Source of the DNA: Frigoribacterium sp. Leaf415
GTDB taxonomy: Bacteria > Actinomycetota > Actinomycetes > Actinomycetales > Microbacteriaceae
Direction of reading: 5' to 3'
Assembly (NCBI RefSeq): GCF_001424645.1
Contig: NZ_LMQR01000001.1
Span: forward strand, 124,001 to 188,000
DNA length: 64,000 nt
Shown here: in pieces, positions 2,685-63,141 of the stretch
How positions within the stretch are numbered: position 1 is the first letter of the stretch
Layout: the number at the start of each line of letters is the position of its first letter
Translations under genes and position numbers: made by a program
The notes under the pieces: generated by a model
Database searches by the model: none
What the model was told of the DNA's origin: nothing
Seen by the model: only the letters and a program-made list of their open reading frames with translations

Positions 2685-3239
2685 GTGCAGCTGGTCGCCC
2701 GCCTCCGCGAAGACCTCGACACCGTCCGGAGGCGCGACCCGGCGGCCCGAGGACGCGTCGAGACCGCTCTGGTCTACTCGGGCTTGCACGCGGTGTGGGC
2801 GCACCGCGTGACCTCGCGACTGTGGCGTGCGGGGCCGGCACCGCGCCTCCTCGGGTCGCGGTTCGCCGCGCGGGTTCTCTCGCAGGTGGCCCGGACGCTG
2901 ACCGGCGTCGAGATCCACCCCGGGGCCCGCCTCGGGGCCCGCCTCTTCATCGACCACGGCATGGGCGTCGTGATCGGCGAGACCGCGGTGGTCGGCGACG
3001 ACTGCACGATCTTCCACGGCGTGACCCTCGGGGGCAAGGGACGAGGAGGCGCGCTCGGCCGCCGGCACCCCACCGTCGGTGACGGCGTGATGATCGGTGC
3101 CGGGGCCGCCGTGCTCGGCGGCGTCACCGTGGGCAGCGGCAGCGTCGTCGGGGCCAACGCCGTCGTGACGAAGGACGTCCCGCCCGGGTCCGTCGCGGTG
3201 GGCGTGCCCGCGATCGCCCGGCCGCGCGCCGAGGCCTGA
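2685..3239 (+). CDS. cysE: Serine O-acetyltransferase
   Basis: Acetylates L-serine with acetyl-CoA to give O-acetylserine, the substrate of CysK. At 184 residues it is the short actinobacterial/Bacillus-type CysE. The left-handed beta-helix hexapeptide repeats run from about residue 75 to the end (GVVIGETAVVGDDCTIFHGVTLG, IGAGAAVLGGVTVG), with the catalytic His in IDHGMG and a second His in IFHGVTLGG. The GTG start is one base after the cysK stop, and no separate ribosome site is evident, so translational coupling is likely. The C-terminus RPRAEA is variable in this family. Confidence 0.95.
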   Translation: MQLVARLREDLDTVRRRDPAARGRVETALVYSGLHAVWAHRVTSRLWRAGPAPRLLGSRFAARVLSQVARTLTGVEIHPGARLGARLFIDHGMGVVIGETAVVGDDCTIFHGVTLGGKGRGGALGRRHPTVGDGVMIGAGAAVLGGVTVGSGSVVGANAVVTKDVPPGSVAVGVPAIARPRAEA

Positions 3240-3241
3240 GC

Positions 3242-3312
3242 CTGCCCCGACCGGGCCGTGCCGGGCCCTGCCCCGACCGGGCCGGGCCGGGCCCTGCCCC
3301 GACCGGGCCCGG
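3242..3312. repeat. 26-bp tandem repeat, about 2.7 copies
   Basis: The unit CTGCCCCGACCGGGCC plus ten further G/C bases starts at 3242, 3268 and 3294, exactly 26 bases apart. It follows the cysE stop and ends just before a palindrome. It is a candidate variable-number locus; no function is visible. Confidence 0.75.
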
Positions 3313-3317
3313 CACGT

Positions 3318-3374
3318 CGAGGAGTCACGACGTGCCGGTCACCGTGGACCCGAGCGGCATGTCGTGACTCCTCG
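3318..3374. repeat. GTCACGAC-type intergenic palindrome between convergent genes
   Basis: Arms CGAGGAGTCACGACGTGCCG (3318-3337) and its complement with one mismatch (3355-3374), with a 17-base loop. It separates cysE (+) from the ABC permease (-), so it could serve both transcripts. The inner TCACGACrTGCCG core is shared with the palindromes at 7054, 19843 and 28511. Confidence 0.75.
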
Positions 3375-3385
3375 GCGAGCCCGCC

Positions 3386-4174
3386 TCAGTGGCGAGGCTC
3401 CCAGCGGAACAGTCGCATCCCCGCGACCACGGCCAGCGCGGCCCAGACCAGCGTGGGGGCGAGCAGCACCGGGACGACCGACAGGTCGCCGCCGTTCCAG
3501 GCGAGCACGGCGAGTTCCATGAGTCCGCCTCCGGGCAGCACCCGCTTCAGCCAGAGCAGGTCGTCGGCACCGGTGAGCGTCCACCAGATGGCGACGCCGA
3601 GCGTGACCATGAAGATCGGCATGGTCGTGTACTGCGCGTGCTCGGGTGAGGTGCTGAAGCCGGCCGTCGCGAACGCGAATCCGGCGAACATGACCTCGGC
3701 GATGATGACGGCGGCGATCACCAACGCCGGGTTCGCCGGTGGTTCGCGCACGGCGAGGACGCCGAGCACGATCACGATCTGCGCGAGGCTGACGGCCATG
3801 GCGGGGAGCACGAGTCCTCCGATGATGCCCGCGTCGCTGACCGAACCGCTGCGCAGTCGCTTCAGGTAGAGCGACTGTCGACGGGCCGCCAGCGTCGTCG
3901 TCGCGGTGATGTAGACCCCGAGGCCCACCATGCCCACGATCTGCACGCCCGCGAGCATGCCGCCCGTGCCGTAGACACCGAACAGGAAGGTGCCGGCTCC
4001 GAACGCCAGGGGCAACAGCAGGGCCGAGAGCGCGACGGTGCGGTTGCGCACGAGCATGCGCAACTCGGCGACGCCGATGGCGACGGGTCCCGACCGGTTC
4101 GAGCCGGAGGGAGAGGTGCCGCCGGGCCCGGTCGGACCCGTCGAGGCGGGGGAGGAGGTGACGACGGAAGTCAT
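3386..4174 (-). CDS. ABC-2 type transporter permease
   Basis: A 262-residue membrane protein with about six hydrophobic helices after a Pro/Ser/Gly-rich N-terminus (residues 1-30). It looks like the ABC2_membrane/DrrB-type permeases that pair with a separate ATPase. The ATPase gene lies directly upstream on the same strand with a 34-base gap, forming one two-gene exporter operon. The starting Met is preceded by GAAAGGACCCC, a good ribosome site. Divergently transcribed histidine kinase and response regulator genes suggest envelope-stress or antibiotic control, as in LiaRS/DesKR-linked exporters. The substrate is unknown. Confidence 0.85.
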   Translation of the reverse strand: MTSVVTSSPASTGPTGPGGTSPSGSNRSGPVAIGVAELRMLVRNRTVALSALLLPLAFGAGTFLFGVYGTGGMLAGVQIVGMVGLGVYITATTTLAARRQSLYLKRLRSGSVSDAGIIGGLVLPAMAVSLAQIVIVLGVLAVREPPANPALVIAAVIIAEVMFAGFAFATAGFSTSPEHAQYTTMPIFMVTLGVAIWWTLTGADDLLWLKRVLPGGGLMELAVLAWNGGDLSVVPVLLAPTLVWAALAVVAGMRLFRWEPRH

Positions 4175-4208
4175 GAGGGGTCCTTTCGAGGACGGTGGAT
4201 CGAGGGGG

Positions 4209-61715: not shown

Positions 61716-61770
61716 GAGGTCATCGTGCAGGCCTCGGCACCCGACCGTCAAACGGGTCTTTGGGGGTCGG

Positions 61771-61866
61771 CTACTTCGAGGTGGCGAGACCCACGAGCGC
61801 GGCCGAGATCAGGCCGGCGCCGACGACCGAGATGGCGATGATGAGGACGTGGAAGAACAGGACCAT
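61771..61866 (-). CDS. 31-residue single-helix membrane peptide
   Basis: Reads MVLFFHVLIIAISVVGAGLI and eleven more residues ending LATSK. Nearly all 31 codons end in G or C, and the whole peptide is one membrane helix with a Lys at the end. The ribosome site is weak (AGAGAG). It lies in the gap between the ArsR gene and the acetamidase. Such small hydrophobic proteins are often missed. Supported by codon use and hydrophobicity only. Confidence 0.55.
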   Translation of the reverse strand: MVLFFHVLIIAISVVGAGLISAALVGLATSK

Positions 61867-61990
61867 GGGGGCGTCGGTCTCTCTGTGAGCAGGTGCGGCG
61901 GGTCGGGGCGGAACAGGCGTCCATCGTACCGAGCGCCCCTGGGCGCGGCACGTCCGGCGGGGTGCCCGGGCCGCGGCCTACGCTCGGACG

Positions 61991-62920
61991 ATGACGACCC
62001 GCCACCTCGACCCCAGCACCGACACCGCCCACGAGGTCTTCTCGCGCGATCACGCCCCCGTGCTGACGATCGACCCCGGTGACACCGTCGTCGTGCGCTC
62101 GCTCGACGCCTCGGGCCACCTCGAGCCGCAGACCGTGCCCGGCGAGGTCACGCCGTACCTCTTCCCGACCCGGCGCGGCCACGCCCTGACCGGTCCGATC
62201 GCCGTCCGCGGGGCCCGTCCGGGTGACATGCTGCAGCTCGACCTGCTCTCGCTCACCCCCGACGACTGGGGCTTCACGGTCGCCGCGGCCGCCGACACCC
62301 CGATCACCCGTCACCTCGGCCTGGTCGACGCCGAGGCCGCCTGGCTGCTCTGGACCATCGACCGCGACGCCGGCACGGCCACCGAGAGCCGGGGCCTGCG
62401 TCGCCCGATCGCCCCCTTCCTCGGCGTGATGGGACTCGCCCCCGCCGAGGCCGGAGAACACTCGACCATCCCGCCCCGCGCCTCCGTGGGCGGCAACATC
62501 GACTGCCGTGACCTCGTCGCGGGTACGACCCTCTGGTTGCCGGTGGCGGTCGACGACGCCCTGCTCTACCTCGGCGACGGGCACGCGGCCCAGGGCGACG
62601 GCGAGGTCGGCGGCACCGCGATCGAGACCGGCATGACGACGGAGGCGCGGGTCGGCCTGGCGACGGACCGCCCGCTCACGACGATCCACGCCGAGACCCC
62701 CGAGGCCCGCATCACCTTCGGCTTCGACGCCGACCTCAACGTCGCCAGCGGGGACGCGCTCGCCGCGATGGTGACCTGGATGCAGCAGCTCTACGCGGTC
62801 GACGCCGCCACGGCCCTCGCCTTCGCGAGCACGGTCGTCGACCTGCGCGTCACCCAGGTCGCCAACCGCACCTGGGGCGTGCACGCGGTGCTGCCCCGGG
62901 ACGTGCTCGTCCCCGCCTGA
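61991..62920 (+). CDS. Acetamidase/formamidase family protein
   Basis: A 309-residue amidase of the FmdA_AmdA family, which hydrolyses formamide or acetamide to ammonia and the acid. Signatures are HAPVLTIDPGDTVVVRSLDASG at the start, TGPIAVRGARPGDMLQLDLL, PRASVGGNIDCRDLVAGTTLWLPV, and ALLYLGDGHAAQGDGEVGGTAIE (metal/active-site His and Asp). ATG 61991 has CTCGGACG before it. An AGGAGGCGC motif (reverse) lies nine bases after the stop. Confidence 0.93.
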   Translation: MTTRHLDPSTDTAHEVFSRDHAPVLTIDPGDTVVVRSLDASGHLEPQTVPGEVTPYLFPTRRGHALTGPIAVRGARPGDMLQLDLLSLTPDDWGFTVAAAADTPITRHLGLVDAEAAWLLWTIDRDAGTATESRGLRRPIAPFLGVMGLAPAEAGEHSTIPPRASVGGNIDCRDLVAGTTLWLPVAVDDALLYLGDGHAAQGDGEVGGTAIETGMTTEARVGLATDRPLTTIHAETPEARITFGFDADLNVASGDALAAMVTWMQQLYAVDAATALAFASTVVDLRVTQVANRTWGVHAVLPRDVLVPA

Positions 62921-63016
62921 ATGGCACTGCGCCTCCTGACCGTCGACCGCGGGTCGGTGTCCGGTGGTCGCCGTTCGGCTCGCAGCGCCCCGCGCGACGG
63001 TTCGCCGACACCCCGA

Positions 63017-63032
63017 ATTCGGCGTGCCGAAT
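63017..63032. promoter_or_regulatory. Palindrome ATTCGGCGTGCCGAAT upstream of mntP
   Basis: A perfect inverted repeat (ATTCGGC, GT, GCCGAAT) lies 110 bases before the mntP start. A second, partial copy TCGGCATGCCA is at 63070-63080, 62 bases before the ATG. The form is like a DtxR/MntR-type operator. The yybP-ykoY riboswitch that often precedes mntP was not recognised here. That manganese is the signal is inference. Confidence 0.5.
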
Positions 63033-63141
63033 ACCTCTGATCAGCACTTTTCCGGTCGAGGAGGCGCGCTCGGCATGCCAGGATCGTCAGGTTCCGAGAC
63101 ACCGGCGTCTCCACCCGACCGTCTCGAAAGGCGCTGCCCCC

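Follow-up and report, generated by a model that had tools for sequence, protein, structure and literature searches.

Why does one short word recur some three dozen times, on both strands, within a single stretch of a bacterial chromosome? The question is raised by 64,000 nucleotides of Frigoribacterium sp. Leaf415 (contig NZ_LMQR01000001.1, positions 124,001 to 188,000), referred to here as the window. The original prediction, made from this stretch alone, described the 9-mer AGGAGGCGC as a highly iterated motif with about 35 copies, most of which extend by GG to the 11-mer AGGAGGCGCGG. The word is found throughout the genome, is sharply bounded and restricted to one genus, is denser between genes than within them, and is conserved; two other genera carry different iterated words. 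Its most likely role, held tentatively, is that of a genus-specific, position-independent self-recognition word and putative uptake signal, comparable to the DNA uptake sequences (DUS) of Neisseriaceae and the uptake signal sequences (USS) of Pasteurellaceae.

Abundance and Shape of the Word

The window contains 36 exact copies of AGGAGGCGC (17 forward, 19 reverse), whereas 100 dinucleotide shuffles of the same DNA contain 1.48 on average (standard deviation 1.14, maximum 4). The earlier estimate was about two by chance, and all 35 positions listed with it are exact matches. Its total falls short by one overlooked forward copy, at 61660, so that 16 forward copies become 17, while the reverse count and the near balance of the strands stand. 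The GG extension, said to follow most copies, is present in 23 of the 36. No Rfam family matches the window at gathering scores.

Across the whole genome (3.42 Mb), AGGAGGCGCGG is present 625 times on the forward and 614 times on the reverse strand, a total of 1239 or 0.36 per kb, compared to 10 (6 + 4) for the reversed word used as a control. Such over-representation on both strands is one of the features by which DUS and USS are recognized. In 444 kb sampled from the genome (the window and 19 stretches of 20 kb), AGGAGGCGC has 208 copies where an order-3 Markov model expects 10.3, and AGGAGGCGCGG has 132 where 1.1 (order 3) or 4.7 (order 5) are expected. Shuffling of synonymous codons yields 24.3 (standard deviation 4.4) coding 9-mers against 123 observed, and 3.8 coding 11-mers against 72. 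Thus, the motif is highly iterated, as the original prediction held, and protein constraint is insufficient to explain it; neither a count near the order-3 Markov value nor codon pair bias, the two outcomes that would have spoken against the prediction, was found. The strand bias that had been raised as a question is absent, as the sample holds 108 forward and 100 reverse copies, homogeneous over the 20 stretches (chi2 12.7, df 20, p 0.89). Separately, one 20 kb stretch of the sample (L016), which includes carB-, priA- and trpA-type genes, lacks the 11-mer, has two 9-mers and exceeds all others in GC skew; no near match to it was found among phages.

The word has a sharp edge. One-mismatch forms of the 11-mer number 0-5 each at positions 2 to 9, compared to the 132 exact copies, and 3-33 each at the looser positions 1, 10, and 11. 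The observed/expected ratio of the 10-mer GGAGGCGCGG drops from 42.6 for exact copies to 1.65, 0.87 and 0.91 at one, two and three mismatches, respectively. The base preceding GGAGGCGC is poorly conserved across species (identity 0.82 for coding and 0.62 for intergenic copies), and the maintained core is GGAGGCGC, a non-palindromic 8-mer, followed by GG. A weak extension surrounds GGAGGCGCGG, with A before it and T at positions +11 and +16, numbered from the first core G. A+T, mainly T, is raised at these two positions (z 7.3 and 9.1), giving an extended site of 17-18 bases, and flank information is small beyond about 17 bases. The +16 signal recurs in the genomes without a type IV pilus described below (8.4) and in both parts of clade B (6.0 and 5.5), and is present in all four lineages examined; the +11 signal is present in three of the four groups. 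The form of the word varies within the genus. The first A is hardly preferred in G004 and G006, whereas G007 and G012 keep it and are looser past the core. G006 has the weakest word among the sampled genomes of the genus (31 10-mers vs 3.3).

Placement Relative to Genes

A gene model made for the 444 kb sample (412 genes, 87.7% coding) places 123 of the 208 copies in genes (59%) and 85 between them (41%), where intergenic DNA is 12% of the total. Density is highest in gaps between convergent genes (3.88 per kb), followed by tandem gaps (1.84), divergent gaps (0.60) and gene interiors (0.315). Coding copies use all six frame and strand combinations; the commonest encoded peptides are RASS, APP, EEAR, and QEAR, and RRR occurs only 3 times. 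Within genes, the 9-mer is less frequent in sense than in antisense orientation (49 vs 74, p 0.03) and favors the outer quintiles (64/123, p 0.007). This end bias is strongest for antisense copies, with 22/74 in the first fifth and 24/74 in the last, and is weak for the 10-mer GGAGGCGCGG (63/129, p 0.048). Additionally, 32 of the 208 copies (15%) form opposite-strand pairs within 60 bp, compared to about 6 expected. The 16 inverted pairs are distributed over genes (4), convergent gaps (4) and tandem gaps (8).

Conservation and Turnover

Alignment of the window to four relatives (G009, G010, G014, and G015; 85-89% identity) and, over 2.6 kb only, to G003 reveals that the word is conserved above matched words and that its turnover is mostly by substitution. 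Where either side has the 8-mer core, both have it at 110 of 148 coding and 30 of 45 intergenic sites; the baseline for all 8-mers, taken over the four relatives, is 0.41-0.53 in coding and 0.23-0.37 in intergenic DNA. The conserved fraction in five pairs over the window region is 0.83-0.88, compared to 0.29-0.50 for composition-matched words. Only 4 of 53 differences among near relatives face a gap. Per-base identity in coding DNA is 0.970 for the core, 0.894 for the baseline, 0.86 upstream (-20 to -4) and 0.88-0.91 downstream (+10 to +67). The corresponding intergenic values are 0.911, 0.807, 0.74-0.77, and 0.85-0.89. A clear excess of divergence over the average is thus confined to the upstream flank.

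Relative loss rates (ln motif / ln control) were obtained from the ComEA region of 16 species and the window region of 5; these pairs share species and are non-independent, and a word other than this core may suit clade B better. Among the seven pilus-bearing genomes of clade A the rate is 0.11-0.46, with 1.1 for the near-identical pair G013/G015. It is 0.40-0.65 among G001, G007, G011, and G012, and 0.48 for G004/G006. Between pilus-bearing clade A and the G001/G007/G011/G012 group, it rises to 0.79-1.56 in 28 of 28 pairs, and these lineages have therefore gathered copies at different places. Clade A compared to G004/G006 gives 0.56-0.85 and compared to G002/G003/G005 gives 0.28-0.81, which indicates that copies are partly shared with these groups. 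Conservation at first appeared relaxed among the pilus-less genomes G002, G003, and G005 (0.32, 0.46, and 0.53). This idea was dropped because a further 100 kb region gave 0.22 for G002/G003 and 0.21 for the pilus-bearing pair G000/G014, where G000 is the genome of the window.

Distribution Across Genomes

The word is restricted to one genus, with looser forms in clade B. A first draw of 60 genomes comprised that of the window, 15 others of the genus, 21 from other genera of the family and 23 from other families. AGGAGGCGCGG is abundant in all 16 genomes of the genus, with 1239 copies in the window's own and 383-1152 in the other 15. Counts are 0-26 in the other genera and 0-25 in the other families, similar to the reversed control. 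A larger draw (up to 200 requested) added no genome of the genus. A family-wide draw of 398 genomes (the window's own, 9 of the genus and 388 of other genera) gave 0-78 copies in the other genera, the second highest count being 45 (control 64). The highest count outside the genus belongs to G093, from another genus of the family, with 78 copies and a reversed control of 27. Frondihabitans sp. Leaf304 has 7.

Different words are iterated in two other genera, in a comparison that covered 101.7 kb from Frondihabitans, 60 kb from a third genus (G016) and 20 kb from each of ten other genera. Frondihabitans, which probably belongs to the same family, carries 60 copies of AGGATCCG in its 101.7 kb, preceded by A-rich bases (stretches L080 and L254-L257). 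One-mismatch neighbors number 0-14 each, and genes hold 44 copies compared to 3.8 (standard deviation 1.7) in synonymous shuffles. Reciprocally, CGGATCCTG is absent from the 444 kb of the window's genome, where 5.3 copies are expected. In G016 (stretches L038, L258, and L259), CGGATGCCG occurs 22 times in 60 kb against 2.6 expected, and 14 times in genes against 1.0 in synonymous shuffles; its split between coding and intergenic DNA is weak because the gene model covers 42% of the DNA. CGGATGCCG is also raised in single 20 kb stretches (observed/expected) of G018 (10/1.1), G021 (6/1.0), G023 (7/0.8) and G036 (6/1.5), the over-represented stretches including L040, L042, L044, and L049. It is not clearly raised in 20 kb stretches of G017, G022, G026, G029, G031, and G034 (1-2 each). 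Other families show a mild excess of it in Geodermatophilus (3/0.5), Nonomuraea (2/0.6) and Actinoplanes (3/0.6), which leaves room for a contribution of coding effects, and none in Arthrobacter, Paenarthrobacter, and Streptomyces (0-1).

AGGAGGCGC, AGGATCCG, and CGGATGCCG can be read as sharing a frame in which [AC]GGA is followed by two variable positions and then C(C)G. Going by the samples of 101.7 and 60 kb, the words of the other genera may be dialects of one signal. Other repeats were seen as well. Overlapping 9- and 10-mers of GCGGGTTGAGGAGG occur 8-10 times in 20 kb of L044 (G023), perhaps as a REP-type (repetitive extragenic palindromic) repeat of its genus. TACCAGGG words occur 11 and 16 times in 20 kb of L035 and L036, apparently as a local repeat, and L032 and L037 contain poly-G runs.

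Predicted Uptake Machinery

Microbacteriaceae are high-GC Gram-positive bacteria. The gene content of the genus predicts a competence machinery. ComEC, sought in the window's genome, is present there. ComEA-type HHH_3 domains are present in 16/16 genomes of the genus and in 7/7 other-genus family genomes of the same draw. The Tad/Flp search, which covered only the ATPase family, recovered a TadA-family ATPase in 16/16 genomes of the genus and in the same seven of other genera (5/7 over the cut-off). The window's genome also encodes a type IV pilus cluster beside rpsG, with a PilT-type ATPase, a PilC-type T2SSF protein, prepilins, an A24 peptidase, and PilM. N_methyl prepilins and PilM were found in 13 genomes of the genus and were not found in G002, G003, and G005. 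These three keep and conserve the word, so the type IV pilus is not needed for its maintenance, and a type IV minor pilin cannot be its sole reader. Clade B, which has the pilus, conserves the word less well; the pilus therefore does not predict conservation. PilM is also present in 8/21 other-genus family genomes, all of them without the word.

The Word as a Putative Uptake Signal

Resemblance to the reported features of uptake sequences makes an uptake-type self signal the most likely role of the word. Permissive placement, inverted pairs, and a conserved core, by which DUS and USS are recognized, are all found here. Neisserial DUS are reported to lie in permissive places, with a conserved word in more divergent surroundings, and their gain by recombination has been argued (PMC2397512). 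Inverted pairs of DUS are linked to terminators, and DUS dialects follow the tree of the Neisseriaceae (PMC3630211). Like DUS, which are short and number in the thousands, the Frigoribacterium word is short, present in many copies, tolerated at permissive sites, arranged in part as inverted pairs, and perhaps accompanied by related words in related species (PMC3630211, PMC2397512). Its upstream flank (0.86) also falls below the coding baseline, as reported for the surroundings of DUS (PMC2397512). However, gains here are mostly ungapped substitutions, whereas DUS are said to be often gained by recombination (PMC2397512). Additionally, the present host is a high-GC Gram-positive in which the word does not require a type IV pilus. 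The word would work like a DUS and is not classed as a member of the DUS family.

The likeness extends to the USS. Uptake sequences are described as lacking orientation bias, accumulating by point mutation, and having a short core flanked by weaker positions (PMC1939737). The sharp 9-base core, weak downstream positions, and absence of orientation bias seen here agree with the USS of Pasteurellaceae, and the share of copies in reading frames is close (59% here, 65% in H. influenzae; PMC1939737). One orientation is favored in genes for uptake sequences, with a gene-end bias in Pasteurellaceae, and both tendencies are shared by the word (PMC2346458). Unlike the USS, whose tail consists of A+T tracts, the word is followed by single T positions, and its host and receptor differ. 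The known receptor of such sequences is reported to be a type IV minor pilin, ComP, with ComN predicted. This feature of DUS and USS is not found here, as prepilins and PilM were not found in 3 of the 16 genomes that keep the word.

A different reader is perhaps provided by a Flp-pilus/ComE-type uptake machine. The actinobacterium Micrococcus luteus is able to take up DNA by means of Flp pili, ComEA, and ComEC (PMC4322843, PMC6370729). Proteins related to its ComEA, ComEC, and TadA ATPase are encoded here too (PMC4322843). The main text of that M. luteus paper does not use the terms 'uptake sequence' or 'sequence-specific' (PMC4322843). We infer that a protein reads the word, that it is part of an uptake machine (for example, a Flp/Tad pilus with ComEA/ComEC), and that uptake is biased. 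In the proposed mechanism, a DNA receptor of the competence machine would prefer DNA bearing GGAGGCGCGG. The DNA of relatives would therefore be taken up more often, recombine, and bring the word along, and copies would gather where they are harmless.

Several observations weigh against an uptake signal. One-mismatch forms are barely over-represented (observed/expected 1.65). The 10-mer GGAGGCGCGG has no significant orientation preference in genes (59 sense, 70 antisense, p 0.38), and copies per 4 kb follow a Poisson distribution (variance/mean 1.04) with no even spacing. In the window, copies are denser in the syntenic core than elsewhere (0.70 vs 0.32-0.47 per kb), but this core, 60% of window DNA, holds 27/36 copies, which is a trend only (p 0.09). 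The downstream flank is near or above the baseline identity, unlike the upstream flank, and gaps account for a larger share of lost sites in distant pairs (7/22 for G003/G005, 9/39 for G000/G003, 9/44 for G000/G007). Conservation is weaker in clade B and in one of the two regions of the pilus-less clade. The pilus-less genomes G002, G003, and G005 still hold 945, 1152, and 879 conserved copies. Lastly, HHH_3, TadA, N_methyl, PilM, and RecC, the families sought across genera, all fail to track the word.

Alternative Explanations

Among the systems that the original prediction named for comparison, uptake sequences fit the word best, whereas KOPS (FtsK orienting polar sequences) and RecBCD-type Chi do not. 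The main rival to an uptake signal is a modification or repair bias like that suspected behind HIP1 (highly iterated palindrome 1, GCGATCGC) of cyanobacteria. A lineage-specific orphan methyltransferase and biased repair would turn near-matches into the word, with further use optional. Elhai 2015 proposes such an origin for HIP1, which is also highly iterated, clade-linked, and has exceptional variants (PMC4390886). The sharp edge at one mismatch fits this origin, as do the different words of different genera, which a change of methyltransferase would give, and the palindrome GGATCC, with GATC inside, in the Frondihabitans word. However, GGAGGCGC is non-palindromic, unlike HIP1, for which a link to known methyltransferases exists. 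Moreover, pilus-bearing clade A loses copies several-fold more slowly than composition-matched words, so continuing selection or drive is needed. An origin of this kind is unlikely on balance. Chi and KOPS are short, G-rich words in many copies that are oriented along the replichores, and RecC is the Chi reader of RecBCD. The present word is also short, G-rich, numerous, and lineage-specific, as would be expected of a signal for double-strand-break repair, Chi-like or otherwise, that a helicase-nuclease such as AdnAB recognizes. Unlike Chi, which is co-oriented with replication, and KOPS, which point towards the terminus, it has no orientation bias or heterogeneity over the 20 stretches (108/100), and its scarcity in divergent gaps and clustering in inverted pairs would be unexpected. 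In a search limited to RecC, this protein was not found in 16/16 genomes of the genus or in 21 other-genus family genomes. RecBCD-Chi is rejected because of the absence of RecC hits in the genus, and a repair signal in general is improbable.

A binding site for an abundant chromosome-organizing or segregation protein of the genus is no more probable than a repair signal. The extended site of 17-18 bases, with A+T at +11 and +16, does look like a protein footprint, but positions are unshared between pilus-bearing clade A and G001/G007/G011/G012 in all 28 pairs, and neither strand bias nor even spacing is seen. The inverted pairs, one of them with a T-tail, and the density peak between convergent genes could instead suggest a dispersed mobile repeat (REP or miniature inverted-repeat transposable element, MITE) or a transcription terminator cassette. 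This explanation is disfavored and highly improbable, as 176/208 copies lie outside such pairs and 123/208 lie in genes. Unlike in REP and MITE elements, no longer unit is inserted as a block. Flank information is small beyond about 17 bases, and differences between near species are mostly substitutions (a gap in 4/53, more in distant pairs). The segment from 9000 to 28000 of the window has 3 terminator-like sites compared to 2.3 in shuffles. Finally, 59% of copies are in genes, which would fit a by-product of codon or codon-pair preference. Codon bias is rejected because the observed counts exceed those of synonymous shuffles five-fold for the 9-mer and nineteen-fold for the 11-mer, and with all six frame and strand combinations in use and 41% of copies outside genes, this possibility is close to nil.

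Copies in the Window

The gene model built in this analysis places 12 of the 36 window copies between genes. Inverted pairs are the most conspicuous arrangement. The copies at 10040..10048 (+) and 10062..10070 (-) form a 15-pair hairpin followed by ATTTTT, a terminator-like arrangement. Those at 20833..20841 (+) and 20855..20863 (-, with GG) lie in the last quarter of a coding sequence and form a hairpin of -30 kcal/mol (z -5.5). A third pair, 27527..27535 (+), near the 3' end of a RecQ-like gene, and 27568..27576 (-, with GG), folds no better than shuffles (z -0.43). Both of its 8-mer cores are kept in 7/10 aligned RecQ loci, one of them that of the window; three loci in opposite orientation are not comparable. 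The nearest named relative of the window's RecQ is from Frondihabitans sp. Leaf304 (79%). The copies at 61158..61166 (+) and 61163..61171 (-) overlap as a palindromic pair.

Copies followed by GG lie inside coding sequences at 2843..2851 (-), 14475..14483 (-), 15201..15209 (+), 40084..40092 (+), 40478..40486 (-), 46106..46114 (-), 56822..56830 (+), and, in a glycosyltransferase-like gene, 38726..38734 (-). The copies at 3044..3052 (+), 34135..34143 (-), and 61660..61668 (+), the one overlooked previously, are also inside coding sequences. Several mark gene ends. On reverse-strand coding sequences, 4211..4219 (+) is at the 3' end, 7174..7182 (+) near the 3' end, and 9877..9885 (+) near the 5' end. 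Those at 35367..35375 (-) and 44456..44464 (-) are near 3' ends, and 47491..47499 (+) is near a 5' end; all six carry GG. An AraC-like regulator gene has a copy near its 5' end at 53369..53377 (-).

Intergenic copies with GG are found at 11690..11698 (+), 23208..23216 (-), 46921..46929 (+), and 47373..47381 (-), as well as directly past the stop of a forward coding sequence at 25308..25316 (-), upstream of the RecQ-like helicase gene at 25866..25874 (-), and between convergent genes at 46519..46527 (+). Three more intergenic copies are at 62929..62937 (-), directly past a stop codon, 63059..63067 (+), and 58100..58108 (-), the last also lying under a long overlapping open reading frame without a Pfam match.

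Implications

Transformation that requires an uptake sequence is called unique to Neisseria and Pasteurellaceae by Frye et al. 2013 (PMC3630211). Among the literature matches listed, no report of uptake-type signals in this group was found, and none of the papers containing the AGGAGGCGCGG string is, by title and abstract start, on such a repeated word. A wider proposal, more doubtful than an uptake role for the Frigoribacterium word itself, is that Microbacteriaceae carry genus-specific dialects of one uptake signal built on a common frame ([AC]GGA, then two variable positions, then C or CC and G). It would be the first Gram-positive DUS system, of independent origin, in which a Flp-pilus/ComEA-type receptor takes the place of the type IV minor pilin.

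Should uptake not be its role, the word would still call for an explanation, being spread over the whole genome, kept within clades, and found at other positions in a different clade. If it does signal uptake, a third, Gram-positive origin with dialects would provide a test of molecular drive versus partner choice, and gene exchange in Microbacteriaceae would be subject to a self/non-self barrier.

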